A stretch of 64,000 bases of DNA from Panopea generosa. Taxonomy: Eukaryota; Mollusca; Bivalvia; Adapedonta; Hiatellidae. A model generated the notes under the pieces. That model was given only the letters and a program-made list of their open reading frames with translations. It had not been told where the DNA came from and did not search any database. Position 1 is the stretch's first letter; the number at the start of each line of letters is the position of its first letter. The position numbers and the translations under genes are program-made. Below, piece by piece: positions 6,980 through 57,159 of the stretch. The stretch is from positions 496,001 through 560,000 of the forward strand of contig CM055900.1 in the NCBI GenBank assembly GCA_029582155.1, given 5' to 3'.

Positions 6980-7239
6980 TAATTACTGACTTGGAGTAAT
7001 GAGTTACTATATAAGATGGCTGTGAATAATTCTCAAAAAAATAATCCTAAGAAGAAGTTTGCTCGATCCAGATCAGTGGGAAATTTGAATCCTGGGATAT
7101 TCAGAAACCGTTCCCTGTCTTCAGATCAGTTGAAGGTTGGTTCCCCAAGATCGTCTGAAGGTAGGAGACAGAGTACCCCAGATGTGAATGTGAAGAAGTC
7201 AACACCATACAACCAGTACAACAGCCTCAGTACCATTCT
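6980..7239 (+). CDS. Alternative first coding exon 1 (unknown gene)
   Basis: The coding part runs from ATG 7016 to 7239 (74 codons plus 2 nt), followed by donor GTAAGT at 7240. The ATG has A at -3 and G at +4. The only upstream in-frame codons include TAA at 6980-6982, right after an acceptor-like tttttttcag, so ATG 7016 is the natural start and 6980-7015 would be 5'UTR. The peptide is basic and Ser-rich with no folded domain: PKKK at residues 11-14, then three basophilic kinase-like motifs, RSRS (17-20), RNRS (30-33) and RRQS (50-53). The last fits the PKA consensus RRxS. Its end phase (2) matches the exons at 26388, 45109 and 57071. The parent gene is not recognised. Phospho-regulated N-termini would suit a signalling or channel-associated protein, but that is only inference. 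Confidence 0.62.
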
Positions 7240-8090
7240 GTAAGTAACTGATTGGCTGTTTTCATGTAACCCTTTTGCACAGGTGGATCAAGAAGTTTCA
7301 TTTGGGTGGGTGGGGTGTCACAAAAAAAAAGTGTGAGATTCAAGTAGGTATTTTTTAATAATTTTACCTAAAAATCAATGATTTCATTGCATATTTTGAT
7401 TGTTAGATGGGATTTGGATTCCCTACAAAAATGGGTCCTAAAAAATATTCCAAACAAAATTAACTAAGGGGAGGGGAATCTTTCATTAGAGGTTTTACAT
7501 AGTCATAACTTTTTTCTCTAGGTCAATCTTTAAACACAGAAGTATTAATTTAAAGCCGCAGTTGTTAATAAACATTCTACTTGCATTACATATATATTAT
7601 CAGTAGGTAAAAAGGTCTCGATTTATACTGACATTCAAGTTAACACATATCACAAGGAATTAACCTATTAACCTGATGATCTCGGGTTCAAAAATCAATC
7701 TCGATAGGAAAGAAAAGCAAGCAGGATGTTTATGTAAATATGCATTTTAAACATTTTAATTGATTTTTCTTAATAGATTATTATATACAGGTGCCATACT
7801 TTTGATAGCAATAAAACATATTACCATTAAATAGTTCCATTAGACATTGCTATTACGTGAAGGTGTCAGAACTTTTGTTATTACTGCATGCTACATTTAT
7901 ATAAAATAAATAATTATGTTGTGTTTATTGATTCAACCGTGGTTGTTGATAAACAGCTTGGTTGCCACAGGCTCAGTTGTCACAATCATGTCCTGGTGGT
8001 TTAATGTGGATTTTTTAAATCTCACAGGGGGCATTAAAATTCCAGGTCTATGTTTTAACCATTTTTACTGAAATAGGTATCTTTTTTTAG
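7240..8090 (+). other. Intron sequence after exon 1
   Basis: AT-rich, no gene seen. Starts with GTAAGTAACTG. Confidence 0.45.
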
Positions 8091-9250
8091 CTCATTCACT
8101 GAGCCAAAGGTCAAGGTCACTCTTCGTCCATTGTCCATACATAAACAATTGCTTCAGATGACATCTCCTCTTAAATTATTTTTCATCCAATTTTTAGCTC
8201 GTGGGGACGAAGTCCAAGGAGAGCTATTGTCATGACCCCGGCGGTGTCGTCATCGGCGTCATTGTTGTCGGCGTCGTCTGTAGACACCCAGGATAAACTT
8301 TTGCATTTAAGTTTAAGATATTTATGCAACCACTCATTGGATTTGAATGAAATTTCCCATGTGTGTTCACCACCATCAATGGCACACACACAGGCAAAGA
8401 ACGATAACTCTGGGTTGCATTTTGGCACAGTTATGGCCCTTTTTTCAACATAATTTTTCAGGTTAAAGATTTTTATTAGGTAAAATATCTATGCAGCTAC
8501 TCATTGGATATGAATGAAACTTCCCATGTGCGTTCACCATCATCAATGCAACACACAAAAACAAGAACCATAACTTGGTGTTGCATTTTGGCAAAGTTAA
8601 GGCCCTTTTGGACTTAATTTTTCATCTGTAGATACCCAGGTTAAACTTTTGCATTTAGTTGCGTTTAAGTTTTGGTGTTTGCCTCCAATTTCAATCTTTG
8701 CATGGGTGGTGAGTTTTATCCCATCAGCAAGCTTTGATGTCTTCTGACAACTTTTGTTATAAAACACCAATTTCCTAGAAATGTTTAATGGGTGACCCAC
8801 TACCAAAATTGTTTAAGCCATCAATATTCTTTTGCACCAGCGGGTAGGGCTTAGGTTTTCCCTATATGGCTATAGTAAAAACTTCAAAAGCCATTTCTTT
8901 TGAAACAGCTGACCAGTTTTCATAATAATTTTGCAGTAACTTTCCTTTTGTAGCTCTCTACCAAGATTGTTCAAGTTGTTGGAATTCGTAAAATAAATTG
9001 GCTTTAGCAAAAAATTTAAAAAAAATTCTTGTCAAAAACTTCTGGTCTGATTGCAAAATAATTTCACAAAATTGTTCCTTGGGTGATCCTCTACCAAGAT
9101 TATTCAAATCATCGCATTTAGTAAAAAAAAACATGGCTGCCAGTGGTGGAGCTAGTTTTCCACATATGGTGACTTTGTAACCTGAAGTGAGCATTATACC
9201 TCTCATGAACAGCTGACCTAGCTAGGCTGTAGGTTCAAACCAAGCTGGGC
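8091..9250 (+). repeat. Mollusc-type interspersed repeats with tandem subunits
   Basis: Two adjoining repeat types. The first (about 8195-8640) has the gagctattgtcatgaccc opening and two to three diverged copies of a unit of about 180 bp (ccaggataaacttttgcatt, catgtgtgttcaccaccat, gttgcattttggc). The second (about 8650-9200) has repeated ctctaccaagattgttcaa and ttccttgggtga motifs. I know this style from bivalve genomes. Class and mobility are unknown. Apparent ORFs on both strands are repeat by-products. Confidence 0.6.
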
Positions 9251-9329
9251 TAAATATTTTATATATAGGCTATACATAGTCACTGAACTAAAGTTGGAAT
9301 GAGACTGAATGTTATATATATTATATATG

Positions 9330-10378: not shown

Positions 10379-10395
10379 GTTGTCATCATTCATAT

Positions 10396-22345: not shown

Positions 22346-22502
22346 CAGTCAAACCTGTCTTAAGCATTCAGTCAAAAGAAGGAGCTTTTAAGACAGGTTG
22401 TTGTTTAATGTAAGTTAATTTGCTCCGAATGAGTATAAATGGGAAATAACTAATGTGGCTGCATAAGGTTAGTGGCGGTGACCCCTAATGCAGGTTTGAC
22501 TG
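22346..22502. mobile_element. MITE, CAGTCAAACCTG family
   Basis: Perfect short terminal inverted repeats CAGTCAAACCTG / CAGGTTTGACTG. TA is present on the left (22344-22345); the right TA is mutated to TT. The interior has gcttttaagacaggttg and ggcggtgacccctaatg. It shares its ends with 61563-61744 and 13963-14150. Confidence 0.85.
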
Positions 22503-23019
22503 TTGCATACATTGTGAATGTGCATCTGAAAAGACCTAAAAAATTGAAAATGATGTTGTTATGATTTCAATTATCTCCCTTTATGAAATAAATACATATG
22601 ATTTCACTGTATCTTCATGATCCAACAGGTTTCTATGTCTATCCTTTATATAGTATGTGTGTAGTCATGAATCTTTAACTGGATCCTACTCACATAAAGC
22701 TAACAGTTCATGTATGTGAACTTTCTGTCCAGTTCCGATGTTTTGCATGTAAAGCCATAGTATATAAGTCACAGTTGACACCAAATCTATTGGTTTGGTA
22801 GATGCCTTGATATTGTGTCTATGGTTTGCATTGTAGATAGGTGTGTGTGTATTAATAAGCATTAAATATAGAATATTATAAATCAGTATTACACTCTCAC
22901 CAGTTGCTAAACATTATGGTCATATTGTTGAATTTGGTTCACATATAAAAGAGTAAGAATGCTTAGAGGAAAGTCTCAAATAGTGATATTAATTGATAGA
23001 ATCTGGATTGCTTTTTGGC
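22503..23019. other. Single-copy sequence
   Basis: Nothing recognised. Confidence 0.45.
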
Positions 23020-24876
23020 CTCAGTCAGTTGCAATCTAAAGTAAGCTACGCCGAAACTATAGTTTTCAGTCAATGGCAAATTAAAGTGAGCTATGACCTA
23101 ACTATGTGGGAAAAAAAAAATAAGCCATAACCAAACTAGGGCCTCAGTAAAAGACAAAGTAAGCCGTGACTAACCTGGGTCTCAGTCACTGGCAAATTAA
23201 AGTGAGCCATGACCAAACTAGGGCCTCAGTCAGTAGCTAACTAAAATAAGCCATGACCAAACTAGGGCCTTAGTCAGTGGTAAATTAAAATGAGCCATGA
23301 CCAAACTAGGGCCTCAGTCAGTAGCTAACTAAAGTAAGCCATGACCAAACTAGAGCCTCAGTCAGTGGCAAATTAAAGTGAGCCATGACCAAACTAGGGC
23401 CTCAGTCAATGGTAAATAAATAAAAGCCATGACCAAACAAGGGTCCCGTCAGTGGTAAATAAATATTAGCCATGACCAAACAAGGGCCTCAGTCTGTGGT
23501 AAATTAAAGTGAGCCATGACCAAACTAGGGCCTCATTCAGTGGCAAATTAAAGTAAGCCATGACCAAACAAGGGCTTCCGTCAGTAGTAAATAAATATTA
23601 GCCATGACCAAACTAGGGCCTCATTCAGTGGCAAATTAAAGTGAGCTATGACCAAACTAGGGCTTCAGTCAGTGGTAAATTAAAGTAAGCCATATGACCA
23701 AACAAGGGCCACCATCAGTGGTAAATAAATATTAGCCATGACCAAACTAGGGCCTCAGTTAGTGGTAAATTAAAGTGAGCCATGACCAAACTAGAGCCTC
23801 ATTCATTGGCAAATTAAAGTGAGCTATGACCAAACTAGGGCTTCAGTCAGTGGTAAATTTAAATGAGCCATGACCAAGCTAGGGCCTCAGTCAGTGGTAA
23901 ATTCAAGTGAGCCATGACCAAACAAGGGCCTCCGTCAGTGGTAAATTAAAGTAAGCCATGACCAAACAAGAGCCTCCGTCAGTGGTAAATAAATATAAGC
24001 CATGACAAAACTAGGGCCTCAGTTAGTGGTAAATTAAAGTAAGCCATGACCAAACAAGATCCTCTGTCAGTGGTAAATAAATATTAGCCATGACCAAACT
24101 AGGTCCTCAGTCAGTGGTAAATTAAAGTGAGCCATGACCTAACTAAGCCCTCAGTCACTGGTAAATTAGTGAGCCATTACCAAGCTAGTGCCTTAGTCAG
24201 TGGTAAATTAAAGTGAGCCATTGTCAAGCTAGGGCATGAGCCAGTGGCAAATTAAAGTGAGCCATGACCAAACTAGGGCCTCAGTCACTGGCAAATTAAA
24301 GTGAGCCATTACCAAGCTAGGTTCTGAGTCAGTAGCAAATTAAAGTGAGCCATAACCAAACTAGGGCCTTAGTTAGTGGCACATTAAAGTGAGCCATAAC
24401 CAAACAAGGGCCTCAGTCAGTAACACATTAAAGTAAGCCATTACCAAGCTAGGGTCTGAGTCAGTGGCAAATTAAAGTAAGCCATGACAAAACTAGGGCC
24501 TCAGTCAGTAATAAATAAAGTAAGCCATGACAAAACTAAGGTTCAGTCAGTGGTAAATTAAAATAAGCCTTGACCTAACCTGGGCCTCAATCAGTGGCAA
24601 ATTAAAGTAAGCCATGACAAAACTAGAGCCTTAGCCATAGTAAATTAAAGTAAGCCATGACAAAACTAGAGCCTCAGTCAGTGGCAAATTAAAGTAAGCC
24701 ATGACAAAACTAGGGCCTCAGTCAGTAATAAATTAAAGTAAGCCATGACAAAACTAGGGCCTCAGTCAGTAATAAATTAAAGTAAGCCATGACAAAGGTA
24801 GGGCCTCAGTCAGTGGCAAATTAAAGTAAGCCATGACAAAGGTAGGGCCTCAGTCAGTGGCAAATTAAAGTAATCT
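23020..24876 (+). repeat. Minisatellite, 45-bp unit
   Basis: About 41 copies of a unit with AGCCATGACCAAACTAGGGC, CTCAGTCAGTGG and CAAATTAAAGTGA. Variant classes alternate (GGTAAATAAATATTAGCC against GGCAAATTAAAGTGAGCC), suggesting local block duplications. The right third is more homogeneous (gacaaaactagggcctcagt). Confidence 0.95.
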
Positions 24877-26387: not shown

Positions 26388-26470
26388 ATGCACAAGGTAG
26401 CGAGTACAAGCTCCAATAAGGATAAACTTGCCAGCAGAACTGACAGCTCGTCTTCTCTTCTACTAGATCT
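26388..26470 (+). CDS. Alternative first coding exon 2 (unknown gene)
   Basis: ATG 26388 (A at -3, C at +4) opens a frame of 27 codons plus 2 nt, directly followed by GTAAGT at 26471. The peptide, MHKVASTSSNKDKLASRTDS followed by SSSLLLD, is Ser-rich with a short basic stretch and no signal peptide or domain. Phase 2 matches the exons at 6980, 45109 and 57071. The exon sits in unique sequence, and the AT-rich array begins about 7 bases after the donor. It is short, so chance cannot be excluded; support comes mainly from the phase agreement, the donor and the composition. Confidence 0.5.
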
Positions 26471-26477: not shown

Positions 26478-29430
26478 ATTAATTTTATCATTAAATGATA
26501 TACTGCAATATGTGAAGAATTTACTGCAATTAAGCACTGCAACATGTAATATATATATATAAACTGTAAAATGTAGTACATATACTGTATTGAAGAACTG
26601 CAACATGTAATAAATATATACTGTTACAAGAAGTAAATATACTGTAATGAAGAACTGCAACTCGAGTATATATACTGCAACATGTAGTACATATAATGTA
26701 ATGAAGAACTGCAACATGTAATATATATAAACTGTAAAATGTAGTACATATAATGTAATGAAGAACTGCAACATGTAATATATATATACTGTAACAAGTA
26801 GTATACATGTATATACTGTAATGAAGAACTGCAACATGTAATATATATATATATACTGTAACATGTAGTATATATACTGTGATGAAGAACTGCAACTCGA
26901 GTATATATACTGCAACATGTAGTACATATAATGTAATGAAAAACTGCAACATGTAGTATATGAACTGTACCATGTAGTATATATACTGTGATGAAGAACT
27001 GCAACTCGAGTATATATACTGCAACATGTAGTACATATAATGTAATGAAAAACTGCAACATGTAGTATATGAACTGTACCATGTAGTATATATACTGTGA
27101 TGAAGAACTGCAACTCGAGTATATATACTGCAACATGTAGTACATATAATGTAATGAAGAACTGCAACATGTAGTACATATACTGCAATAAATAACTGCA
27201 ACATTTAATATATATATATACTGTAACATGTAGTACATATACTGTAATAAATAACTGCAACATGTAATATATATATCAACTGTAACATGTAGTATATATA
27301 CTGTGATGAAGAACTGCAACATGTAATATATATATACTGTAACATGTAGTTCATATACTGTAATAAATAACTGCAACATGTAATATATATACTGTGATGA
27401 AGAACTGCAACATGTAATATATTTATATACTGTAACATGTAATTTATATACTGTGATGAAGAACTGCAACATGTAATATATATATATATATATATATACT
27501 GTAACATGTAGTATATAAACTGTGATGAAGAACTGCAACTCGAGTATATATAATGCAACATGTAGTACATATAATGTAATGAAGAACTGCAACATGTAGT
27601 ATATGAACTGTAACATGTAGTACATATACTGCAATAAATAATCGCAACAAGTAATATATATACTGTAATGAAAAACTGCGACATATAGTATATATACTGT
27701 AATGAAGAACTGCAACATGGAGTATATAAAATGTTATGAAGAACTGCAACTCAAGTATATATACTGCAACATGTAGAACATATAATGTAATATATGCAAC
27801 TCAAGTATATATACTGCAACATGTAGTATATATACTGCAACATGTATGTGAAGAATTTACTGCAATGAAGTACTGCAACATGTAGTACATATACTGTAAT
27901 GAAGAACTGCAACATGTAATATATATAGTAACATGTAGTACATATACTGTAATGAAGAAGTGCAACATGTAATATATATATACTGGATTGAAGAACTGCA
28001 TCATGTAGTATATATACTGTAATGAAGTACTGCAACATGAAGTTTATTGACTGCAATATGTAACATATATACAGTAATGAAGAACTGCAACATGTATTAC
28101 ATACATTTATACTGTAATGAATAACTGCAACATGTAACATATATACTGTAATGAAGAACTGCAACATGTAACATATATACTGTAATGCAGAACTGAATTA
28201 TGTAGTATATATACTGTAATGAAGAACTACAACATGTAGTATATGTACTGGTACATGTAGTACATATACTGTAACACAGAACTGCAATATGCAGTATATA
28301 TAATGTATTGAAGAACTGCTACATGTAGTATATATACTGCAACATGTAGTACATATACTGTAATTAAGTACTACAACATGTAGTACATATACTGTAATGA
28401 AGAACTGCAACTTGTTATATATATATACTGCAACATGTAGTATTTATACTGCAACATGTATGTGAAGAATTTACTGCAATGAAGTACTGCAACATGTAGT
28501 ACAAACACTGTAATGAAGAACTGCAACATGTAATATATATACTGCAACATGTATGTGAAGAATTTACTGCAATGAAGTACTGCAACATGTAGTACATATA
28601 CTGTAATGAAGAACTGCAACATGTAACATATATACTGCAACATGTAGTATATATAATGCAACACGTTTGTGAAGGAGTTACTGCAATGAAGTAATACAAC
28701 ACATGTACTATATACTGCATTGAAGTATATACTACAATGAAGTAAATTCTGCATTGAAGTACTGAAACATGTAGTATATATACTGCAGTGAAGTACTGCA
28801 ACATGTAGTATATATATACTGCCATGGAGTACTGCAATATGTTGTATATATACTGCAGTGAAGTACTGTTATATGTAATATATAAACTGCAGTGAAGTAC
28901 TGCCACACATGTACTATATACTGCAGTGAAGTATATTCTACAATGAAGTATATTCTGCAATGAAGTACTGAAACATGTAGTTTATGTGCTACAATGAAGT
29001 AGGTACTGCAACACAGCATGTGTTATACATATTGCAATGGAGTAGGTACTGAAACACAACACATATAATACATAATGCAATGAAGGAGATACTGCAACAC
29101 AACATGTTTAATACATACTGCAATTAAGTAGAAACTGAAACACAATATGTGTAATTTATACTGCAATGAAGTTGAAACTGCAACACAACACATGTAATAC
29201 ATATTGCAATGAAATAGGAACTGAAACACAACACATGTAATGCATACTGTAATGAAGTAGGAACTGAAACACAACGCATGTAACACATACTGCAATGAAG
29301 TAGGAACTGAAACACAACACATGTAGTATATACTGTAATGAAGTAGAGCAACACAACATGATTAATACATACTGCAATGAAGTAGAGCAATATATACTGC
29401 AATGATTAGTAAATATGAATGCTGCAATGC
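26478..29430 (-). repeat. AT-rich minisatellite (ACTGCAACATGTAGTATATA type)
   Basis: Composite units of about 35-60 bp built from GTAATGAAGAACTGCAACAT, GTAGTATATATACTGCAACA and variants. The right third (28690-29420) is a diverged class with gtaggaactgaaacacaac. A 109-bp higher-order repeat, marked by CTCGAG at 26896, 27005 and 27114, occurs three times. The repeats lack stop codons on the minus strand, so frames of up to 364 codons (Tyr/Leu/Val/Ile-rich) appear there. They have no start context, domain or constraint and I do not call them genes. Confidence 0.93.
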
Positions 29431-30191
29431 AGTAGTATCAACTGAGCTTTTTAAAATATTTCTTTAGACAGTGAATATATTACAATGATTTATTTAGATA
29501 ATTATGATATTGCAGTGATTTCTTTAAACATAGATAAGAGATTGCGATGACAGTAAAAATGCAGATATCCTTATGCATGACATATATATATATAAATATG
29601 TATTGTGTAATATAATAATTATATAAGCAGAAATCATCATTGCTATGCTTTTACATTTTAATAAGGATATATATGTTCCACTGACAGCCTTTTTTCAATT
29701 TCAAATAAATGTATATTTGCATATATGGGTATAATATATATAATAATAAATTGAATGATTAAATATTTGTACCGACATCTGAATGAGATATTATAAACAC
29801 AAAGCAAGCAGGAGACCTTTTAAGAAAGTAAATGCCTGTCATATTACATTGACGTTAATTGTATGGAGAGTAATCTTTATATTTATTCAAAAGCTTTTCT
29901 GTATTTCTGTCAAAATGATGTTTCATTAAGCATACTGGTACTTTAATATGGTTGAATGTTTTGAATGTGTTGGTATAGACTGAAATACAAAATATTTTTT
30001 ATTTACTTTCCTTTGTTTTGTTTCTGTCTCAAGTGTATTGAATAATTAAATATGATAAATATATAAAGCATATCATTCGTTGAATACAAGTTCTTGTCAA
30101 CAGTAAGTGTAACACAAACATGGATTGATATTAAGGGGCTTGATAAAATGACTGTTAATTAAAAAATATGAAAACTGGTTACAAATGAAAG
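29431..30191. other. AT-rich spacer between two arrays
   Basis: Single-copy looking. Around 29545-29580 a fragment (cagtaaaaatgcagatatcc) matches the fold-back family at 19600 and 51060. Confidence 0.5.
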
Positions 30192-33100: not shown

Positions 33101-36100
33101 CAGTTGTTTTCATGTCCTGGATACATGTCTAGTGAAGTTTTCAATTACTCAGTTGTTTCCATGTCCTGGATATATGCCTTGTGAAGTCTTCCATAACTCA
33201 GTTGTTTCAATGTTCTGGATACATGTCTAGTGGAGTATTCCATTACTCAGTTGTTTCCATGTTCTGGATACATGCCTAGTGGAGTCTTTCATTACTCAGT
33301 TGTTTCAATGTTCTGGTTACATGCCAAGTGGAGTTTTCCATTATTCAGCTGTTTCCATGTTCTGGATACATGCCTAGTGGAGTCTTTCATTACTCAGTTG
33401 TTTCAATGTTCTGGTTACATGTCTAGTGGAGTCTTCAATTACTCAGTTGATTCCATGTTCTGGATACATGTCTAGTGAAGCTTTCCATTACTCAAATGTT
33501 TCCATGTTCTGGATACTTTTCTAGTGAAGTTTTCTATTACTCAGTTGTTTCCATGTCCTGGATACATGCCTAGTGAAAACTTCCATAACTCAGTTGTTTC
33601 AATGTTCTGGATACATGTCTAGTGAAGTTTTCTATTACTCAGTTGTTTCCATGTCCTGGATACATGTCTAGTGAAGTTTTCTATTACTCAGTTGTTTCCA
33701 TGTCCTGGATACATGTCTAGTGAAGTTTTCCATTTGTCTAGTGAAGTATTCCATTACTCAGTTGTTACCATGTCCTGGATTCATGTCTAGTGAAGTATTT
33801 CATTACTCAGTTGTTTCTATGTTCTGGATACATGTCTAGTGAAGTTTTCCATTTTTCAGTTGTTTCCATGTCCTGGATACATACCTAGTGGAGACTTCCA
33901 TTACTCAGTTGTTTCCATGTTCTGGATGTATGCCTAGTGGAGTCTTCCATTACTCAGTTGTTTCCATGTCCTGGATACATGTCTAGTGGAGTCTTCCATC
34001 ACTCAGTTGTTTCCATGTCCTGGGTACATGTCTAAGGGACTATTCCATTACTCAGTTGTTTCCATGTCCTGGATACATACCTAGTGGAGTCTCCCATTAC
34101 TCAGTTGTTTCCATGTTCTGGATACATGTCTTGTGAAGTCTTCCATAACTCAGTTGTTTCAATGTTCTGGATACATGTCTAGTGAAGTTTTTCATGACTC
34201 AGTTGTTTTCATGTCCTGGATACATGTCTAGTGAAGTTTTCAATTACTCAGTTGTTTCCATGTCCTGGATATATGCCTTGTGAAGTCTTCCATAACTCAG
34301 TTGTTTCAATGTTCTGGATACATGTCTAGTGGAGTATTCCATTACTCAGTTGTTTCCATGTTCTGGATACATGCCTAGTGGAGTCTTTCATTACTCAGTT
34401 GTTTCAATGTTCTGGTTACATGCCAAGTGGAGTTTTCCATTATTCAGCTGTTTCCATGTTCTGGATACATGCCTAGTGGAGTCTTTCATTACTCAGTTGT
34501 TTCAATGTTCTGGTTACATGTCTAGTGGAGTCTTCAATTACTCAGTTGATTCCATGTTCTGGATACATGTCTAGTGAAGCTTTCCATTACTCAAATGTTT
34601 CCATGTTCTGGATACTTTTCTAGTGAAGTTTTCTATTACTCAGTTGTTTCCATGTCCTGGATACATGCCTAGTGAAAACTTCCATAACTCAGTTGTTTCA
34701 ATGTTCTGGATACATGTCTAGTGAAGTTTTCTATTACTCAGTTGTTTCCATGTCCTGGATACATGTCTAGTGAAGTTTTCTATTACTCAGTTGTTTCCAT
34801 GTCCTGGATACATGTCTAGTGAAGTTTTCCATTTGTCTAGTGAAGTATTCCATTACTCAGTTGTTACCATGTCCTGGATTCATGTCTAGTGAAGTATTTC
34901 ATTACTCAGTTGTTTCTATGTTCTGGATACATGTCTAGTGAAGTTTTCCATTTTTCAGTTGTTTCCATGTCCTGGATACATACCTAGTGGAGACTTCCAT
35001 TACTCAGTTGTTTCCATGTTCTGGATGTATGCCTAGTGGAGTCTTCCATTACTCAGTTGTTTCCATGTCCTGGATACATGTCTAGTGGAGTCTTCCATCA
35101 CTCAGTTGTTTCCATGTCCTGGGTACATGTCTAAGAGACTATCCCATTACTCAGTTGTTTCCATGTCCTGGATACATACCTAGTGGAGTCTCCCATTACT
35201 CAGTTGTTTCCATGTTCTGGATACATGCCTTGTGAAGTCTTCCATAACTCAGTTGTTTCAATGTTCTGGATACATGTCTAGTGAAGTTTTCCATGACTCA
35301 GTTGTTTTCATGTCCTGGATACATGTCTAGTGAAGTTTTCAATTACTCAGTTGTTTCAATGTCCTGGATACATGCCTTGTGAAGTCTTCCATAACTCAGT
35401 TGTTTCAATGTTCTGGATACATGTCTAGTGGAGTATTCCATTACTCAGTTGTTTCCATGTTCTGGATACATGCCTAGTGGAGTATTCCATTACTCAGTTG
35501 TTTCATGTTCTGGATGTATACCTAGTGGAGTCTTCCATTACTCAGTTGTTTCCATGTTCTGGATACATGCCTAGTGGAGTCTTCCATTACTCAGTTGTTT
35601 CCATGTCCTGGATACATTCCTAGTGGAGTCTTACATTACTCAGTTGTTTCCATATTCTGGATACATTCCTAGTGGAGTCTTCCATTACTCATTTGTTTCT
35701 ATGTTATGGATACATGTCTAGTGAAGTTTTCCATTACTCAGTTGTTTCCATGTTCTGGATACATGTCTAGTGGAGTTTCCCATTGCTCAGTTGTTTCCAT
35801 GTCCTGGACACATGCTTAGTGGAGTATTCCATTAATCAGTTGTTTCCCTGTCCTGGATACATACCTAGTGGAGTATTCCATTTAATAGGTGTTTCCATGT
35901 TCTGGATACATGTCTAGTGAAGTTTTCCATTACTTAGTTGTTTCAATGTTCTGGATACATGTCTAGCGGAGTTTTCCATTACTCAGTTGTTTCCATGTCC
36001 TTGATACATGCCTAGTGGAGTATTCCATTAATCAGTTGTTTCCATGTCCTGGATACATACCTAGTGGAGTCTTCCATTACTCAGTTGTTTCAATGTTCTG

Positions 36101-36965
36101 GATACATGTCTAGTGAAGTTGTCCATTACTCAGTTGTTTCCATGTCCTGAATACATGTCTAGTGGAATATTCCATTGGTCAGTTGTTTCCATGTTCTGGA
36201 TGCTTGCCTAGTGGAGTCTTCCATTACTCAGTTGTTTCCATGTTCTGGATACATGCCTAGTGGAGGTTTCCGTTACTCAGTTGTTTCCATGTTCTGGATA
36301 CATGCCTAGTGGAGTATTCATTTACTCAGTTGTTTCCATGTTCTGGATACATGTCTAGTTGAGTCTTCCATTACTCAGTTGTTTCCATGTTCTGGATACA
36401 TGCCTAGTGGAGTATTCCATTACTCAGTTGTTTCCATGTTCTGGATACATGTCTAGTGGAGTCTTCCATTACTCAATTGTTTCCATGTTCTGGATACATG
36501 TCTAGTGGAGTCTTCCATTACTTAGTTGTTTCCATGTCCTGGATACATGCCTAGTGGAGTCTTCCATTTCTCAGTTGTTTATATGTCCTGGAAACATACC
36601 TAGTGGAGTATTCCATTAATCAGTTGTTTCCAAGTTCTGGATACATACCTAGTGGAGTATTCCATTAATCAGTTGTTTCCATGTCCTGGATACATACCTA
36701 GTGGAGTCTTCCTATACTCAGTTTTCTCCATGTTCTAGCTGCATGCCTAGTGGAGTATTCCATTTTTCAGTTGTTTCCATGTTCTGGATACATGTCTAAT
36801 GGAGTATTCCATTACTCAGTTGTTTCCATGTTCTGGATACATGCCTAGTGGAGTCAGTTGTTACCATTTTCTGGATGCATACCTAGTGGAGTCTTCCATT
36901 TCACAGTTGTTTCTATGTTCTGGATGTATGTCAAGTGGAATTTTCCATTACTCAGTTGTTTCCTT
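30192..36965 (+). repeat. Minisatellite, 49-bp unit, 6.8 kb
   Basis: About 138 copies of a 49-bp unit containing CCATTACTCAGTTGTTTCC, ATGTTCTGGATACATG and CCTAGTGGAGTCTT. Because 49 is not a multiple of 3, the three frames rotate, and short ORFs with the same peptide (SITQLFPCSGYMPSGVFHYS type) recur. They are by-products. A 1099-bp higher-order repeat occupies the middle. Confidence 0.96.
32147..35445 (+). repeat. 1099-bp higher-order repeat, three near-identical copies
   Basis: The segment starting at 32147 recurs at 33246 and 34345, exactly 1099 bp apart, including irregular landmarks: the shortened unit 'ccatttgtctagtgaagtat', the 'ggatacttttctagtg' variant and 'ctaagggactattcc'. Only a few differences are seen between copies (gttcttgttac against gttctggttac; atgccttgtg against atgtcttgtg; aagggactattcc against aagagactatccc). 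This implies recent block duplication. Confidence 0.93.
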
Positions 36966-37523
36966 GGATGTATTAACTGACTGTTTAATAACTCAGAACA
37001 TTTTTAATTCATCTGGAATTTTCTGTGATATCGCATCATCATCTTCAGTTGACTGGCTGTCCGTCATCTGACCCAATCTGGTGTTATTTTGTTGTTGTTG
37101 TTGTTATTGTCATAGAGGGTTTAGGTGAAGACCAAGTGATCTATGGCATTGTCTTCTGACCACTTACCTGTCAATGCTATGGTTGTGGGTTGAAACCCAG
37201 CTTGGTTCAAAAACTTTATATGAGGAAGTTAACCAGTGATATATTGAATGAACATTGTTAATTAAGTATACACTAATTTATGTTAGCTTGGATACAAAGC
37301 AAGATCATAACTTATATTGGTCTCATGTCCATTTCCTGGGCAGAGTTTTATGTATTATTTTTAAGAGGCCTTAATGTTGAGTCTGGGATCGAACCTGTGA
37401 TTTCTTGATCCACTGCACTTAACCAATCTGCTTGAAAAATTGTTTTGTTTCTCAATTTTTGTTGAGGTCTTCCTGCTCCAGTTAAACTGTATACCATAAT
37501 TATATACTTTATCAAAAATATAA
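36966..37523 (+). mobile_element. SINE family A fragments in mixed sequence
   Basis: A partial head and body at 37117-37235 (aagaccaagtgatctatggc, B box GTGGGTTGAAACCC, AACTTTATATGAGGAAGTT). A minus-strand tRNA-like fragment (gtctgggatcgaacctgtga) lies near 37380, and a 3' module (gaggtcttcctgctccagtt) at 37461-37515. The rest is single-copy. A (GTT)n run lies at 37091-37106. Confidence 0.5.
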
Positions 37524-37764
37524 GGGGTCGTCTGTGGCTGAGTGGTCTATGGTGCCATTTCAAGATCACTTACCTCTCACCACAAAGGTTATAGACTCCC
37601 TCCATAAACTTTATGTGAGAAAGTTTGCCAGTAAGTTGCGGAAGGACAGTGATTCTACTCAGATTTATTTTGAGGTCCTCCTACACCAATAAAACTGAAT
37701 ATATGCCTTATATAACCTAAAATGATGTGTTGAAAATAGTGTTGAACCCCATTAAAAAAAAAAA
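37524..37764 (+). mobile_element. SINE family A, full length
   Basis: Head GGGGTCGTCTGTGGCTGAG, TTTATGTGAGAAAGTTTGCC, GATTCTACTCAGATTTATTT, CTACACCAATAAAACTG, end GTTGAACCCCATTAAAAAA with an 11-A tail. The B box is damaged (ggttatagactccc). Confidence 0.87.
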
Positions 37765-39546
37765 GTCAAGATGAAGCATGCTGGCATATCCAAATTAAAA
37801 GCACTTTGTTGGAATATTACAACCAAGAAGACAATCAGATTAAGTTCCCATAGACTTGTGCACAGACTGTGTATGTTGTTTGTGCTTTTATTGTGCTGGA
37901 ATTGTATTGATACAATCATTATCATTAAACCATTCTATTCTTCTCTCAGTCACCAGGTGATCTTGACTGCCTTTAATTTTAAATGGACACTCACTGTTAC
38001 TTATAAATAGTGGAAAATACTATTAAAACCATTGTTACTTTTGTACAATTTGATAGTGGAAATAAATTCCATTTGCCATAATGCGTTAATTGAAAATAAA
38101 CATAAGGAAAAGCTTTAGATGTATTATAAACACAGGTAAACAAAGTTAGAAATAGTGGCCTTCGAAACTGTAAATTTACGACCAATTTTTTTCTTTTTAT
38201 GATAAATAAATATCTCCGTCAATCACAATTAAGTAATCATATTTATCAATAGTTACTTTAGAATATTATCTCCTGCATTGCCTTTCATTAAGAGTACCCT
38301 CAGTTCCTGACCTTGGGTTACCTAAGAGGGAAAGTTTAACTTATATCAGTATTTAAGGTATCTATAGCTATTTATGTTTCATTTAAAACAGGTACGGGAT
38401 ATATTTTGTGACAATTTGTTCACGTTTTTGACATAATCAATAAGGCAAGATTTCTTTTCAAGGATTTTTGTTACAGTTTGTTTTTTACGAAAGTTTTAAA
38501 AAATATCTTCTTTGGTAGTTTTAACCCTTTACTTCATAGATATGCGTTTTCCTGCACCAATCATAGAAGGCCTTTGAAAACAGTGCAGGAAGAGTTCAGA
38601 TTGCTCGTTACAAGCAATCTGAATACTTCCTGCACTGTAATCATATAAATAAAAAAACATTATGAATATTTACTGAAAACCACAATTATGGAGAATATTG
38701 CCCTCTTTGAATTGCACAAATAAGAAATTAACAGTTTTTAGCTTGACATTTTAAAAAAAAGGGAAGCTATTGACAGTATATACCATACTTCCACTGGCGT
38801 CAGCATATTTTTTTTTTTTTTGGTTAAAGTTTTTAGGCATGTTGCTAATAATTCAGAAGCTATTAATAAAACTTCAAGTGAATGTTCACTTTTATAAAGG
38901 GGACTCAAGGGGCAAGGTTTTGTTGTGTCGGGGGTTTTTTCTTCTTTTTTTTTTAAATATGCAGTTTGGCTCAATATGATATGTTTACTTAAGATATATT
39001 AGTCTTGCTTCCAGTATGGATCTCCAGGAATTTCTGTATGTGTGTTTTAATATCTGATCAGAATTAAGTAATTATAGTAAACACACACTTCAGTGACGTG
39101 ATTGAACAGTTGATAGTATAAATGTAAACACCTTTCTCAATATTTAGAACAAACCTGGCGGGTATTAATTTAGTTGGAATATTTCATTTTATCAGTTGCA
39201 TGGACAAGATAAGCCCCTTGTAAACAACTGATGTAACAGTGTGACACGGGGCTCTTATCATTAACAAATGTGATTTTGATATAAATGTGTGTTGAATAAC
39301 AAAAATGTTGTATCAATATGTATGCACTTAATTAGAATATCAATGAAAAGGAAATTTTAAAAAGGTAGTTGATGGGGAGGGATTTAAATTGTTTAGTTTA
39401 AATTAGGCCAGAAGTGAATTTTTTTTTTTTTGCTCTCTCCCTATCCTAGTTTTCAAAATTGAATAGGTAGGTATGTACGAGAAAAAATGTCTCCAAAATC
39501 TGCTATAAGATATTTGACTGTTAGACAGAGAAAGAGCATTTTTTTA
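37765..39546. other. AT-rich single-copy sequence
   Basis: No exon or repeat family recognised apart from the hairpin at 38581-38637 and several poly(T)/poly(A) runs (38807-38821, 38941-38954, 39420-39431). Confidence 0.45.
38581..38637. other. 25-bp stem hairpin
   Basis: cagtgcaggaag-ag-ttcagattgct is followed by a 7-nt loop (cgttaca) and its reverse complement agcaatctgaa-ta-cttcctgcactg, with only a two-base internal mismatch. Neighbouring sequence is not inverted, so the structure is isolated. It could be a tiny fold-back element or a small structured RNA. It is shorter than usual animal pre-miRNA hairpins. Confidence 0.7.
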
Positions 39547-40258
39547 GTTGTCTGTAACAGCAGCAGTGCACCAGTCCAGCTACCTAGTGGTCTGTCTGTA
39601 ACAGCAACAGTGTACCAGTCCTGCTGCTGACTAGTGGTTTGTCTGTAACAGCAGCAGTGCACCAGTCAAGCCGCTGGCTAGTGGTCTGTCTGTAACAGCA
39701 GCAGTGCACCAGACCAGCTGGCTTTTGGTCTGTCTGTAGCAGCAATGGTGCACCAGTCCAGCTGCTGGCTAGTGGTCTGTCTGTAACAGCAGCAGTACAC
39801 CAGTCTAGCTGCTGGCTATTGGTCTGTCTGTAACAGCAGCAGTGCACCAGTCAAGCTGGCTAGCGGTCTGTCTGTAACAGCAGCAGTGCACCAGTCCAGC
39901 TTGCTTTTGATCTGTCTGTAACAGCAGCAGTGCACCAGTACAGCTGGTTATTGGTCTGTCTGTAACAGCAGCAATGCACCAGTGCAGCTGGCTATTGGTC
40001 TGTCTGTAACAGCAGCAGTACACTAGTCCAGCTGGCTAGTGGTCTGTCTGTTACAGCAGCAATGCACCAGTGCAGCTGGCTATTGGTCTGTCTGTAACAG
40101 CAGCAGTACACCAGTCCAGCTGGCTAGTGGTCTGTCTGTTACAGCAGCAGTGCACCAGTCCAGCTAGCTAGTGATGTGTCTGTAACAGCAGCAGTGCACA
40201 TTAGTACAACTGGCTAGTGGTCTGTCTGTAACAGCAGCAACGCACCAGACGAGCTGGT
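39547..40258 (+). repeat. Minisatellite, ~44-47 bp unit
   Basis: About 16 copies of AGTGGTCTGTCTGTAACAGC, AGCAGTGCACCAGTCCAGCT and GGCT or GCTGGCT. GC-richer than the surroundings. Minus-strand frames (MHCCCYRQT type) are by-products. Confidence 0.95.
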
Positions 40259-45108: not shown

Positions 45109-45230
45109 ATGGGTGATAAGCAAAAGCATGTGGATAAACATGTTGACCCCGGGGCACATGGGGACCCTGGGGCACATGATTCAGGTCCAGCTTCAGACAT
45201 AGAGGAGGAGCTATCAGAAGCAGAAATGTG
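45109..45230 (+). CDS. Alternative first coding exon 3 (unknown gene)
   Basis: ATG 45109 has a strong start context (A at -3, G at +4). The frame of 40 codons plus 2 nt ends at donor GTATGT (45231). The peptide is charged and low-complexity: a His/Lys/Asp part with a small repeat (HVDKHVDPGAHGDPGAH, residues 7-23) and an acidic end (DIEEELSEAEM, residues 30-40). Local GC is clearly higher than in the flanks, as expected of coding sequence. Phase 2 matches the other three exons. The acidic tail contrasts with the basic exon 1, so promoter choice would change the N-terminal charge. No domain is recognised. Confidence 0.62.
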
Positions 45231-50281: not shown

Positions 50282-50475
50282 TTGTGTGATAGCGGTAGAG
50301 CATCAGATCCTGGATTTGAGGGTCGTGGGTTTGATCTTCTGCCACGGCTATGTGTGGTGTCCTTTATCAAGACACTTTATCTGCTTATGCTTAGTTCTGG
50401 TTCTACAGATTTCGAGATTGATTCATTTAAGTTGTATCAACTTGTTTCACAATTGAAGTAAAATAAATAAGTTTA
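50282..50475 (+). mobile_element. SINE family D
   Basis: tRNA-like head GTGTGATAGCGGTAGAGCA with B box GTCGTGGGTTTGATCTTC. Then ATGTGTGGTGTCCTTTATC, AAGACACTTTATCTGC, CAACTTGTTTCACAATTG and tail AAATAAATAAG. Relatives at 17056 and 42735. Confidence 0.78.
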
Positions 50476-50549
50476 AATTAATGTGTCTCTAAGCAATACC
50501 AGAAAGATAATATTTAGGATACTGGAATGAGAATAGTCTGATTTTACCA

Positions 50550-51190: not shown

Positions 51191-51233
51191 TCACCCATTC
51201 ATCACAGCCAGATGATAGACGCTTAATTTTTTT

Positions 51234-51236
<3 letters not shown>

Positions 51237-51264
<28 letters not shown>
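51237..51264. repeat. (TA)n microsatellite
   Basis: Fourteen TA units or so. Confidence 0.95.
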
Positions 51265-53534
51265 ACAGATGCTCATTTTTACAAAACTAGACTACTTTTT
51301 TTATATGGGTCTTTAACTCCTAAAAGTATGTACCAAATATTACATGTTAACCTTCCTGCCTGTATATTGTTATAATAATAAAATATAATGTTTACCATGA
51401 CTCTATTCTTGTAGGTTAAAGCAAGACATTATAAACATATACATTGACATTATATTGTTCTGAGATAATGTCTATCATCTACAACAAAATCAAGCTGTAA
51501 AACATTTTCTTAGGCATGGAAATAAAAAAAAACATAATTATGAGTTGTGAAGGAAATGGATGATACAATTGGATCAAGTGCCAGATTTTCGTCAGGTCAT
51601 GTGAGAAAGGTGTTGTGTGTTTTTGTAAGATAAAGATTGACTTCTTGAAGAAAACTTTTATCTTCTATGAGCAGGAATAGGAGAAAAAAATATCTGACAC
51701 CAGTAAAGTAACTCATAATCATACACCACATGTGAGAAATTTCTCTCTCAGAAGAATTGAGATAAAATCTAAACACTCATAAAATGGACATGCTGGTATA
51801 AAGCTATTCCCAGAAGATTGTAAATCATATCATATATATATATATGATAACATACATATTTAGAAAAATATAACTTTAGCTGACTGCAATGGAAGAAAAA
51901 AAAAAAATCATGATTATTAGTTTGAGTTAGGCCAACAGCCTGACAGACTTTTGCAATGGTGCATGTCCTTTATCCATTATTTGTAGTCTGTCATCATCCA
52001 TTAGCAGCACTTTTTCTGAGATCATTTTCAGGCCAGTTATACATTATACTGAACTTCACATGGATGTAGTTCATGTGTTCCAGGGACTTGACACAATACC
52101 GGTATTCAATATAAAATTTAAGATGGCAACCATTACTAAAATCTTCTTCTCATTAACTGCCAAACATATTTTGAAAATATTTAATTAGAAAAGATCACCA
52201 AATATAGTTCTGTCAGAACTGTACAAATGGTGTTCCTGGGGCTAAAAATGACCCCACTGTTTCGGTTCATTTAGGGATGCATGTGATTATAATAGAGATA
52301 AATCAGCTTATTAATTTTAAGAACTGATTTTCGTAGGATCATTGTTCAACGAAGCATATTTAGATTTGTAAAAATGAATGGGTTCCATTGTCTTAAGGGT
52401 CAAAAATGTCCCAAAAAGTGTAAAAATTGTGAACTTTTAAAAATCTTTTTCTAATGAACAGCGGTCAGTCAAATTGATCACATCTTGTGTAAATCATCAT
52501 CGGAGTGTAGCTAAAGAACTGAACATTTCCAACTTAAAGCATTGTAATAATTCCTTTGCAGAGTAATTAAGTTTTTGTCTTGCAAGAATGGTGTAAGGGC
52601 TTTTTATGTATAACTGAACCTGTTTGATAATATTCTTATTGTTGTTGAGTTAATCGGATATGGGTTTAATATTATTCATTCAATTTTAGTGAGCACAGTC
52701 CAAGCACCCTTCCCCAACGTAAATATAATCTGCTCAGATCCATCTTACCCTCCTTTGTGAAGATAAATTGGAATGTTTAATAATTTAGTTTAAAACAAAT
52801 TATTAATTTGTATAGAAATAACCCATTGACTGACATTTAATTCTTTGGCTGCTACAGTTATTTCCCTTAACCATAAAACAAAATTCAAATAAAGGGAAAA
52901 AACAGTGTCATACACAAAGTCAAGAGTACACTCGGAGTTACCTTTCCTGTTTTATGGCTCAGTGCAGCAATAATCATTTGTGACGTAATATCATCTGTGC
53001 GTTGTACTGTATAATTACATTTTTATGCCAGGTCTAAATTGTCCTGGCTACCTAAAGACTGGAAGAAAAATGTAGTATTACCAGAATTTATTGTATACTT
53101 AGTGAATACATAATCATCCCCACTGTTTGATTGTATTTAATTCAAGTTTTAATGTCAGAAATACATTTTCACCTAGCAGATTTATTTGCAATATTGTAAC
53201 ATAACTAAAATAGTAGGATATGATTTTACTACTAATTTTAGACTTTTTATTTATGAATTAAAACCATACAAATATATACATACATGTATATGTGATGAGG
53301 CACGCAGTAAGTGACCTCAGACATACACATAAGAAAACCTCCTTCCCCATGATTATGTGATTAGTATCTCGTACATGTATGTACATAAAATTTTGTAGAT
53401 AAAGGAGAAACTTATGGGTTTTCATACATATATGTAGGTAATAAGTTATGAATCATACAAGTGTACATGGGTTACGGAGTTAAACTTCATATACATATAT
53501 TATATGGACAAAAAGACACTATAATGACTTATAA
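51265..53534. other. AT-rich sequence, partly mollusc-type repeat
   Basis: About 51925-52330 has the rhythm of the interspersed repeats (gacagacttttgcaatggtg, tccagggacttgacacaata, tcttctcattaactgcc) but no clear copy for comparison. The rest shows nothing. Confidence 0.4.
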
Positions 53535-54283
53535 ATGATAAATACCTCATACATATAACAGTTAAATGATTTATACTTCATGCATATGTCAGTTAAATGA
53601 TTTATACTTCATGCATATGTCAGTTAAAGGATTGATATCTCATTCATATGTCTGTTAAATTATTCATGCCTCATACATATGTTGGTCAAATTATTTATAT
53701 CTCATACAAATGTTGGTTAAATGATTCATGCCTCATACACATGTTGGTTAAATGACTTATACCTTATACAAACAAATGTTGGTTAAATGATTTATACCTC
53801 ATGCATATGTCAGTTAAATTATTCATGCCTCATACATATGTTGGTCAAATTATTTATATCTCATACAAATGTCGGTTAAATGATTCATGCCTCATACACA
53901 GGTTGGTTAAATGACTTATACCTCATACAAACATATGTTGGTTTAATGATTTATACCTCATACATATGTTGGTTAAATGATTTATACCTCATACATATGG
54001 TGGTTAAATGATTTATACCTCATACAAACATATGTTGGTTAAATGATTTATATCTCATATATATTTCAGTTAAATGGTTTATACATCATACATCCTTTGA
54101 TTAAATGATTTATACCTTATACATATGTCAATTAAAGGATAAATACCTCATACATATGTGGTTTAATGATTTATACCTCATACATATGTCAGTTAAATGA
54201 TTTATACCTCATACATATGTTGGTTAAATGATTTATACTCATACATATGTCAATTAAATGATTTATACCTCATACCTATGTTC
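53535..54283 (+). repeat. Minisatellite, ~31-bp unit, left block
   Basis: About 24 copies of TCATACATATGTTGGTTAAA + TGATTTATACC with many small variants. Confidence 0.93.
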
Positions 54284-54864
54284 TACTATGGCAATACTTA
54301 GAACAAACACATGGTTTTACAAATAGTACTTTTCATTCTAGATAGTAAGGTGCCAAGCGACAGACCAGAGTGCCCACTCCTAAGAGTTGTTGTTGTATGG
54401 TGTTTAGCGTCGCTTTCAACAATTTTTCAGTCATATCGTGACGGTGTCTACTTGAGACAGTATTCTAAGCGCTGTCACACTGGAGTATCATGCCGCAGAC
54501 ACATGGTATGATACCCCACCCAGTCACATTATACTGACACTGGGCCGACCAGGCCTATAACTCTCCTCTAAATGCTGAACGTCAAGCGAGGAAGCTACTC
54601 CTAAGAGACGCCCTCTCCGGGTCTCTGTCCGAATCTGCCCAGTCTGGCTAAAGTGTCCAGTTAATAAAGCCCCCGCATCACGAACAATAATAAACAATCA
54701 TAATTCATCGTGACTTTAATGGAACTGCTAGCTTGTAAACAAATCAATCAGGCTTGCAGGTTGGGGGTCATGGCTAAAGTGATGATGCACAGCCTGACTC
54801 ACATGGAACAGTTTGATCTGGACCAAATTCAATATACATTAGTAACATAATGACCGATATTAAC
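54284..54864 (+). other. Complex island inside the 31-bp array, with an open frame split by a SINE
   Basis: Richer in GC and free of the satellite unit. After pyrimidine-rich tacttttcattctag a frame reads KVPSDRPECPLLR up to the SINE at 54387. Skipping the SINE and one target duplicate, the frame continues ALSGSLSESAQSG to TAA at 54649-54651. AATAAA follows at 54663. That resembles a 3'-terminal coding exon, or it may be chance in an otherwise conserved-looking non-coding element (caatcataattcatcgtgac, ctgcaagcc-like tracts downstream). If the acceptor is ...atag|t at 54344, the entry phase fits the upstream phase-2 donors. Not recognised as any known protein end. Confidence 0.3.
54387..54596 (-). 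mobile_element. SINE family B, 5' truncated, with 11-bp target duplication
   Basis: Minus-strand insertion from AACAACAAC tail to CTTCCTCGCTTGACG; the tRNA head is missing. It is flanked by a perfect ACTCCTAAGAG at 54376-54386 and 54597-54607. The insertion disrupts the open frame described for 54284-54864. Confidence 0.93.
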
Positions 54865-55312
54865 ACACATATGTGGTTAAATGATTTATATCTCATACAT
54901 TTTTCAGTTAAATGATTAATACATCATACATATGTCAGTTAAATTATTGATACCTCATACATATATCAGTTAAATGATATCTGCCTCATACATATTTTGA
55001 TTAAATGATTTCTATCTCATATATATGTTGATTAAATGATTTCTATCTCATATATATGTTGATTAAATGATGTATATCTCATATATATGTCAGTTAAATG
55101 ATTAATACATCATACATATGTTGATTAAATGATTTCTGCCTCATATATATGTCAATTAAATGATTTTTGCCTCATACATATGTTGGTTAAATGAGTTTTG
55201 CCTCATACATATGTTGGTTAAATGAGTTTTGTCTCATACATATGTTGGTTAAATGATTTCTGCCCCATACATATGTTGGTATAATGATTTCTGTCTCATT
55301 TATATGTTGATA
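54865..55312 (+). repeat. Minisatellite, ~31-bp unit, right block
   Basis: About 14 copies, with a higher share of TGATTTCTGCCTCATA and GATTAAATGATTTCTATC variants than the left block. Confidence 0.92.
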
Positions 55313-57070
55313 TTTCACTGGAACCAACAAGTGTTCACTTTGGAATCAACAACTGTTCACTTGATGATATTTGATTTAATTGAACCAACAAGTGCTTGTT
55401 GTTGGAAGTAGTTTATGGGACTTATAGATAAAAATAAAAGTAATTTAAGAGCAGGTAGCTATGTTTCCGTTTACCCATAAGAGAAGTAGAATAGGAAGCA
55501 ATTACCAAACTCATTAATCTGTTTCAAGATTGAAATTTACAACAGAGATAATATTATTTGGACAACAAACTTGCATGTTTAGATAACAGTCTAACAGCCT
55601 AAACTAAAGAATCTTTTATAGATTTACTAACATTCAATGTTTTTGTATTTAAACATTCTCCTTTGAAAATGTTAAGGACATTTTATTGGGAAGATTTAAA
55701 TAATAGAGAATTTAAGTAGATATATCAACAATGACAAAGTTCAACGAGGATGTGTATAATGAATGATAATAGAGAGATTATTTATATTTCATATATATGG
55801 CAAAAGTGGGATTCTTTCCATTATCTCCTAGGACCGTAAGTGAATAATTTAACCGATTATTTATAAAAGGACTTCTCTAAATATTTAAGACGTTTCTTGA
55901 CTCTGAAGATTTAGTTGATGATTTCTGTCAAATTTAGTTGTGGACTGTTTTTTGATAAATTTGTGTTGGGAATGTTTCTGGGGTTTTTTTCCAACTAATT
56001 TATAACATGCAATTAACACAATCAATTATGATTGATGTTTGGATTATCATTGGACATTTGGGTTAATTTTTATAACGTTGGATTGGTATATTTTTTTTAA
56101 CTTCTACTTATGAACAGATTTCAGTTTAAAAGATATTTAAAAGTACAAGGTTTTTTAAAAAGTTTCATAAAGGTGAAAAAAAATCTGAAGATAAAATTGT
56201 ACCAATAGCTCTTAATTTGTTATATTTTTAAATATCTAAATTATTTTTTTTATTAACCTGTACTTATTTTTGTAAATAAATTCTATAAGACTAATATTGC
56301 TATGTCTAGTTTATTTTAGCATGTAAATACAGTCATACTTCACAATCATTTTCCATAAATCAAGCATAAACTTTCAAAATAGAATTACCATGATAAAGTA
56401 AATCACATCTTAAAATATCACATTTGAAGACAACTGTGACAAACATTTAATAAAATTGTGAAATCAGGATTGGATTATATAAAGTTCAAGCTACGTAAAA
56501 ATGCATAAAATGAACGAATAAAATAATTCCATTGAATTATGAAAATACATGACCTTTAATGCTTCCTTTATTACACTGAAATTGTAACGTTCAATTGTGA
56601 AAGGTAAATGGAGCTGCACATATAAAAGTGATACCTTTATTAAGATGGAGAATGGATGGATTTTATTTCCTAATTGACTGGAACATTGACTCCATCAGGA
56701 ACACCTGAGGCAACCTAATACTCCAACATTGGTCGGAATTCCGATGTTTTACTAATACTCTTATTGATTCTAATACACGGACAACAATGTATAAATGAGA
56801 TGGTGAAATTTGAGAAAAGAATTACTGCTATGATTAAGCTCAGATAGGAAAGTTTGAAATCAGAATCTGATTCATCTAGCAAAGTGTAACAAAGCCTTTA
56901 TACACTAGCTGTTATTTTAAGATTGAAATCCGTGAACAGGACTTTAAGATTATTGTATTCTATAGAGTAAAAAGTTCCATATTAACAGAGACCTTGTTTT
57001 TTTGAGGTAACAAAACCAGTATGCAGTATATATATATATACTATTAAAAAGTCGGATATTATTTTCAACA
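55313..57070. other. AT-rich single-copy sequence upstream of exon 4
   Basis: No repeat family recognised. A TA-rich stretch (tatatatatatata at 57029-57042) lies 30-40 bp upstream of ATG 57071. It could serve as a TATA-like element only if the 5'UTR is extremely short, so this is not a firm promoter call. Confidence 0.4.
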
Positions 57071-57159
57071 ATGGAAGGTGACAATACTTCAGCAAGTTCA
57101 TCAAAGACTGCTAAACAGCCGCTGAAGCATAGAATATTGTCGTTTTATACCCTAGCAAA
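57071..57159 (+). CDS. Alternative first coding exon 4 (unknown gene)
   Basis: ATG 57071 in a good context (aacaATGG: A at -3, G at +4) opens 29 codons plus 2 nt, ended by GTAAGT at 57160. The peptide is MEGDNTSASSSKTAKQPLKH then RILSFYTLA: a Ser-rich start and a basic-hydrophobic stretch. The pattern LKHRIL is loosely like the basic-hydrophobic N-terminal stretch of some Kv-channel-interacting proteins (LKQRFL), but six residues prove nothing. Phase 2 matches the three upstream exons. The candidate microexon at 58671 lies 1.5 kb downstream and would extend it as K-SSKSKP. Confidence 0.6.

Follow-up and report, generated by a model that had tools for sequence, protein, structure and literature searches.

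Do four open segments spread over 50 kb of Panopea generosa DNA serve as alternative first coding exons of one gene? They lie on the + strand of a stretch of 64,000 nucleotides (hereafter the window; all coordinates are counted from its first base), and a sequence-only reading had proposed that they belong to a single multi-promoter gene whose body lies past 64000. As shown in Table 1, the four ATG-to-donor segments, named here by the position of their ATG, are present as that reading described them, with lengths of 224, 83, 122 and 89 nt that each leave 2 nt, with donors GTAAGT, GTAAGT, GTATGT and GTAAGT, and with A at -3 in every case. The locus therefore offers, as candidates, several start exons on the same strand and in the same phase. 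The peptide of 7016 (MAVNNSQ...NSLSTI) is Ser/Lys-rich, and that of 45109 is acid-rich and has the top composition score among the units of the window. No domain was recognised in them, in agreement with the earlier reading; none of the four peptides matched Pfam and none of the three tried matched PDB. An in-frame stop is located upstream of each of the four ORFs, so each segment, if coding, would start translation. No second copy of any of the four was found within the 284 kb examined, and the two that were checked genome-wide, 7016 and 45109, are single-copy.

Table 1. Candidate exons on the window, with their boundaries and reading phase.
Feature	Positions	Strand	Description
Candidate start exon 1	7016..7239	+	74 codons + CT; donor TCT/GTAAGT, phase 2
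Candidate start exon 2	26388..26470	+	27 codons + CT; donor TCT/GTAAGT, phase 2
Candidate start exon 3	45109..45230	+	40 codons + TG; donor GTG/GTATGT, phase 2
Candidate start exon 4	57071..57159	+	29 codons + AA; donor AAA/GTAAGT, phase 2
Possible 5' UTR part of exon 1	6853..7015	+	acceptors before 6853 and before 6980
Speculative shared exon in the window	57719..57760	+	42 nt; acceptor 8.6; phase 2 in and out; open (DIVRTSSFLSAKP)

The description of all four segments as first exons held in part. They are protein-like and share one strand, but the 7016 exon is probably not the first to be transcribed because strong acceptors lie upstream of it. The acceptor before 6853, 163 nt upstream of the ATG, scores highest of the 3416 AGs in the window, and the acceptor before 6980 is at the 97.4th percentile among them. 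CpG observed/expected in the interval 250-750 bases upstream of the starts was 0.57, 1.06, 0.86 and 0.54, compared to a mean of 0.41, a rise with a probability of about 0.005 for four independent windows, computed post hoc for one of six offsets examined. Raised CpG upstream of the four starts would suit promoters. The CpG stretch upstream of 7016 contains repeat-like sequence.

The first + strand gene body recognised past 64000 is not PDE4 or KChIP, the two families that the earlier reading had named, but CENP-N. Eight exons at 69762-86664, with the stop at 86664, match CENP-N residues ~68-336 and include the middle and C-terminal domains. The last four exons matched PDB CENP-N chains with an E value of 5.9e-11 and Pfam PF05238 with 41.8 bits (cut-off 25); all eight, joined to the 7016 peptide and a spacer, gave an E value of 4.2e-21. 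A genome DNA search with one exon found no second copy of CENP-N free of the assembly gap; the gene is single-copy by that exon. The genome-wide Pfam profile search for CENP-N was silent, also in control genomes, and missed the true exons; it is therefore uninformative. The recognised exons open at about codon 57, without the first ~56 codons, and the start of the gene must therefore lie upstream, either in an assembly gap of 500 N at 68697-69196, which ends 565 bases before the first recognised exon, or in or near the window. The proposal of one multi-promoter gene is thus partly supported: a same-strand body that lacks its N-terminus lies past 64000, but in the CENP-N frame its eight recognised exons offer no phase-2 acceptor. 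The link from the window to this body spans the gap, and a junction of the four units to one gene body may be hidden by it.

The missing CENP-N exon (codons ~26-57) was not found by splice phase and similarity, either in 57160-69762 or in the whole window; the best + strand scores were 26, equal to the minus-strand control of 26. Among the + strand ATGs before the CENP-N body there is no clear candidate for its start. One at 2091 (MADVLKEFI...; score 21) was rejected, since scores of 21 or more are reached by 3 of 2434 ATGs on the + strand before the body, at least 7 of 4771 on the same strand after the first CENP-N exon and at least 8 of 6893 on the minus strand. An exon at 64364-64404 fits by phase only and was likewise set aside; the CENP-N score falls when it is joined to any of the four start exons (from 78.2 to 76.1 with 7016). 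Inclusion of the speculative exon at 57719-57760, scored without a shuffle control, changed the CENP-N score from 78.2 to 75.8 with 7016 and from 74.6 to 76.4 with 45109, and by +0.3 with 26388 or 57071. In the 20 kb upstream of the window no convincing exon was present among the best 12 per strand. The best exon-like stretch there, on the minus strand, resembles a dispersed repeat that also occurs at 8183-8488 of the window.

The peptides themselves were compared to CENP-N, using a human sequence or the spacing derived from it. The end of the 7016 peptide weakly resembles CENP-N residues 9-25, adding 3.7 bits, with 1 of 250 shuffles as good; in an ungapped test over all junctions the tail was equalled by 72 of 5000 shuffles. 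Peptides 26388, 45109 and 57071 contributed 0.1, -0.1 and 0.7 bits, nothing clear. In human CENP-N (PMC5777823) the residues E3, E7 and R11 make contacts to CENP-A, while M1 lies buried and P17 is strongly conserved. At the positions aligned to M1, E3, E7, R11 and P17, the end of the 7016 peptide carries R, S, V, K and Q instead, and a pyrin-domain start with these residues was not encountered in the window exons. Viral and prokaryote contigs yielded no relatives of the 7016 peptide, which is no surprise for an animal sequence.

Pfam was searched on both strands of the window without the tandem arrays, 29391-30198, 52701-53531 and 54283-54866, and on the minus strand also without 18635-23116 and 36964-39548. 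In the parts scanned, nothing on either strand matched at the curated cut-off. Below it were a relic resembling mariner and three matches of lesser strength, the families concerned being HTH_32, HTH_48, CENP-B_dimeris, zf-RING_16 and PRIMA1. Beyond the window the scan took in the piece L002 (+ frames, except at 4551-5399), the last CENP-N exons in joined form and four selected ORFs. Neither EF-hand nor UCR/PDEase was present in the scanned + strand frames of the window and L002; of the 200 kb that follows the window, Pfam covered the smaller part.

The shared phase had been given odds of 1/27, which is a weak argument. GTAAGT in phase 2 reads ..G/TAA, so that an ORF spotted by its stop at that point is in phase 2 by construction, a caveat that covers three of the four units. 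With intron phase ratios of 5:3:2 (PMC7259759), any common phase among four introns has a probability of 0.07, and four phase-2 introns of 0.0016. Phase 2 is not general: the + strand has 16 unfiltered units with 60 nt or more between ATG and GTAAGT or GTATGT, and they are spread over the phases as 3/7/6; the 11 with A at -3 are spread as 2/3/6.

Could some or all of the segments be non-coding stretches, open from an ATG, that run by coincidence into a strong donor hexamer and attracted notice through their hydrophilic-looking peptides, with phase 2 arising from the in-frame TAA of GTAAGT? This is about as probable as the reading favored below. We used a filter for disordered-protein composition plus a donor hexamer, ignoring phase; its composition part was picked post hoc, after the peptides had been seen. 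On the unmasked window only the four units passed on the + strand and none on the minus strand. An order-4 Markov null yielded 0.02 filter-passing phase-2 units per strand (150 runs, maximum 1). The next 200 kb of real sequence is a harsher control: seven units passed there (3 on +, 4 on -; phases 1/5/1), mostly outside recognised genes, although at least one is part of a real gene, a forkhead exon. From this rate 0.72-1.0 units are expected per window strand, and the probability of four or more is no smaller than 0.006-0.02. Two donors, those at 7239 and 26470, carry T at -1 and reach just 0.7 bits, and higher-scoring donors are found within the 7016 ORF at 7160 (phase 1, 4.7) and 7135 (phase 0, 2.1). 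Against chance stand the 4 to 0 split between the strands, the phase (2 in 4/4 window units vs 1/7 in the next 200 kb; Fisher p 0.015), the composition score of 45109 (25.9 vs a null maximum of 8.9 over 150 runs) and the 74 open codons of 7016. The four units are modestly above background.

Two further explanations accept the segments as exons, and we regard each as unlikely. They might belong, as start exons, to a single gene that is not CENP-N and whose body lies past 86.7 kb or on a different contig (the earlier reader's version being PDE4-like); CENP-N would then sit inside an intron of it or be adjacent through a scaffolding error. The lack of an in-frame phase-2 acceptor in CENP-N, the gap, three of four peptides unlike CENP-N and the phase-2 joining of PDE4 start exons all favour this, but from 86664 to the forkhead gene at ~140 kb the 32 top-scoring exon-like stretches of the + strand were all unconvincing by eye. 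Alternatively, the segments might start separate, mutually unrelated small genes or non-coding transcripts, as suggested by their different lengths, compositions and donor strengths and by a strong upstream acceptor at 7016 alone among the four. Their uniform strand and phase argue otherwise, as does the failure of anything in the scanned + strand parts to reach a Pfam cut-off.

We tentatively favor the reading in which the four segments are start exons of a + strand unit with its body past 64000, CENP-N being the likeliest. The segments would be transcribed and would join a shared body, that of CENP-N. At least the 7016 exon would start CENP-N, perhaps preceded by UTR exons, and would splice across ~61 kb to an unseen exon hidden by the gap; that exon would have ~31 codons, accept phase 2 and leave phase 0. 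Segments 26388, 45109 and 57071 would be alternative starts that exchange the N-terminal tail. The fullest form, a CENP-N with four start exons over 50 kb that exchange the tail together with the opening helix of the pyrin domain that reads CENP-A, is very unlikely. If true, kinetochore proteins would differ in the end that reads the centromere, and one would have a Ser/Lys tail bearing three SP/TP sites. Multiple start exons are common in animal genes; exchangeable N-termini on a constitutive centromere protein would be unusual. In practical terms, the outcome is a located CENP-N gene with an unrecognised start, which the gap may hide, plus a few exons that merit checking.

Several known genes can be compared with this locus. 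PDE4 has a long 5' region and alternative start exons that join within a codon, in phase 2. A literature search found no paper on this; unlike PDE4, the scanned parts of this locus contain no PDE domain. The KChIP and DPP6/DPP10 genes (PMC3973911) combine several unlike N-terminal first exons with one common core, whereas neither a KChIP nor a DPP core is present here in the scanned parts. For CENP-N, a CCAN kinetochore protein (PF05238), the same-strand body past the window is the shared part, and the difference is that the pyrin-domain start is not recognised here. Should the window exons be the starts of this gene, they would replace or alter its first helix, a known CENP-A-binding element.

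The four candidate start exons described in the sequence-only reading (7016-7239, 26388-26470, 45109-45230 and 57071-57159 on the + strand, named here by the position of the ATG) are present from ATG to donor exactly as it gave them, and the observation is confirmed; its interpretation, a putative single gene with several promoters, is partly supported. The window, C7:496001-560000 (+), is AT-rich and contains many tandem arrays. One of these, at 30199-36963, carries 137 copies of a 49-bp unit over 6.8 kb with a strong T-over-A skew, and several others exceed 700 bases. An in-frame stop lies 12 to 63 nt 5' of each segment; in that frame a segment could be an internal coding exon only with an acceptor between stop and ATG. 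Both acceptors scored near 7016 leave its upstream stop in: that before 6853 is the top-scoring acceptor among the window's 3416 AGs, and TAA is the first in-frame codon after that before 6980. Because of these two acceptors, 7016 is probably a second exon with the start codon in it. Within 600 nt, the highest-scoring acceptors for 26388, 45109 and 57071 stood at percentiles 95.5, 95.0 and 84.6, respectively.

None of the four segments recurred across 284 kb (the window, 20 kb upstream and 200 kb downstream), DNA in which a SINE-like control was found 13 times, and a search of the genome (1.474 Gb, 39 contigs) with 7016 and 45109 showed both to be single-copy. A dispersed repeat with an ORF reading GIRTRDP..., probably, at a guess, a tRNA-derived SINE, occupies 13850-13964 and 13 more places in the 284 kb. 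On the minus strand, 59674-59745 was called as tRNA-Ala by ARAGORN and 6216-6273 as a tRNA by Rfam.

The chance of a shared phase had been put at 1/27, which is the wrong figure: a phase-2 GTAAGT itself supplies an in-frame TAA, so phase 2 is automatic for an ORF recognised by that stop. Counting ATG-open units no shorter than 60 nt, the 47 GTAAGT or GTATGT hexamers on the + strand gave 16 (3/7/6 in phases 0/1/2, phase being the nucleotides left over from ATG to donor), 11 of them with A at -3 (2/3/6); the minus strand gave 13 (7/4/2), four with A at -3 (3/1/0). Six phase-2 units with A at -3 were seen versus 1.47 simulated (s.d. 1.09, maximum 4, 60 order-1 runs); the original four are joined here by 3021, overlapping a mariner-like relic, and by 55750, with a peptide of non-coding appearance. 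The relic, of a transposase, lies at 2957-3205 (+), with HTH_48 and HTH_32 matches below curated cut-offs. A filter for disordered-protein composition, picked after the peptides had been seen, passed four strong-hexamer units on the + strand, all phase 2, and none on the minus strand; an order-4 null gave 0.02 such phase-2 units per strand. Weaker-donor units that passed it (2903, 6352 and 6485 on the + strand, two on the minus) were of mixed phase. In the neighbouring 200 kb (159 kb unmasked) hexamer and filter together passed three units on the + strand (0/3/0) and four on the minus (1/2/1), giving P values of 0.006-0.02 for the number of filtered units and 0.015 for the phase contrast. Since this neighbouring real DNA also passes the filter, the excess of start units over background is modest.

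CpG observed/expected was raised at all four starts (0.57, 1.06, 0.86 and 0.54 versus a mean of 0.41; 500-base window centred 500 bases upstream) and not at the remaining five offsets examined, in a post hoc comparison resting on 6-12 CpG per window. The CpG stretch at 7016 contains the repeat-like ORFs 6352 and 6485. Raised CpG weakly favours separate starts.

The 200 kb beyond 64000 was examined for exon-like open stretches on the + strand. The protein translated from such stretches matched CENP-N chains in the PDB (E 5.9e-11) and Pfam CENP-N (41.8 bits). Following phase and similarity upstream from there built up a chain of eight exons, all compatible in frame and phase; with a spacer and the 7016 peptide they matched at E 4.2e-21.

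Exon-like stretch near the fourth start and recognised CENP-N exons (window coordinates, continued past 64000; C7, contig CM055900.1; L, consecutive pieces of the downstream 200 kb)
Feature	Position	Strand	Remark
Exon-like stretch accepting phase 2	57719-57760	+	strong acceptor, 42 nt
CENP-N exon 1	69762-69810	+	~codon 57
CENP-N exon 2	72267-72326	+	
CENP-N exon 3	73260-73345	+	
CENP-N exon 4	73814-73990	+	
CENP-N exon 5	79085-79186	+	
CENP-N exon 6	80623-80698	+	
CENP-N exon 7	82172-82299	+	
CENP-N exon 8	86284 to stop at 86664	+	
Span of recognised CENP-N exons	C7:565762-582664 (69762-86664; L002-L004)	+	just past window

A CENP-N body does lie past 64000 on the + strand; none of its eight recognised exons has a phase-2 acceptor in the CENP-N frame. 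No exon for CENP-N codons 1-56 was recognised from 57160 to the first recognised CENP-N exon, before which lies an assembly gap of exactly 500 N (68697-69196). Joining would need an unseen exon, entered in phase 2 and left in phase 0, which the gap could contain. Past CENP-N, the next gene recognised on the + strand encodes a forkhead protein and lies near 140 kb. The shared body, if it exists, is therefore CENP-N, is hidden in the gap or lies farther off. The forkhead gene (C7:636101-637237, L009:6101-7237; PF00250, 125.5 bits) is presumably FOXF-like, judged by eye, and an HYR-domain exon of another + strand gene lies at C7:757766-758041 (L021:7766-8041; 59.8 bits).

The last residues of the 7016 peptide (..NSLSTI+L) are similar to residues 9-25 of human CENP-N (ungapped score 24, equalled in 72 of 5000 any-junction shuffles) and in context adds 3.7 bits to the CENP-N match, as 1 of 250 shuffles does; four peptides were tried, making the likeness weaker than these shuffle figures look. 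The 26388, 45109 and 57071 peptides added -0.1 to 0.7 bits. The exon-like stretch beginning at 57719 lowered the score with 7016 and added 1.8 bits, without a control, with 45109, a mixed outcome, and a further one that accepts phase 2 (64364-64404) lowered it with all four segments. Human CENP-N residues M1, E3, E7, R11 and P17 matter for CENP-A reading or are highly conserved (PMC5777823); there the 7016 tail differs, having R, S, V, K and Q. On this evidence, the four segments may be linked to CENP-N, with a likelihood that warrants a test and no more.

A literature search found no paper on CENPN with an alternative first exon. PDE4 start exons are joined in phase 2. No PDE4 or KChIP sequence turned up in the parts scanned. 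KChIP and DPP6/DPP10 genes, with alternative first exons and a common core, are laid out in the way that the sequence-only reading proposed for the four segments (PMC3973911).
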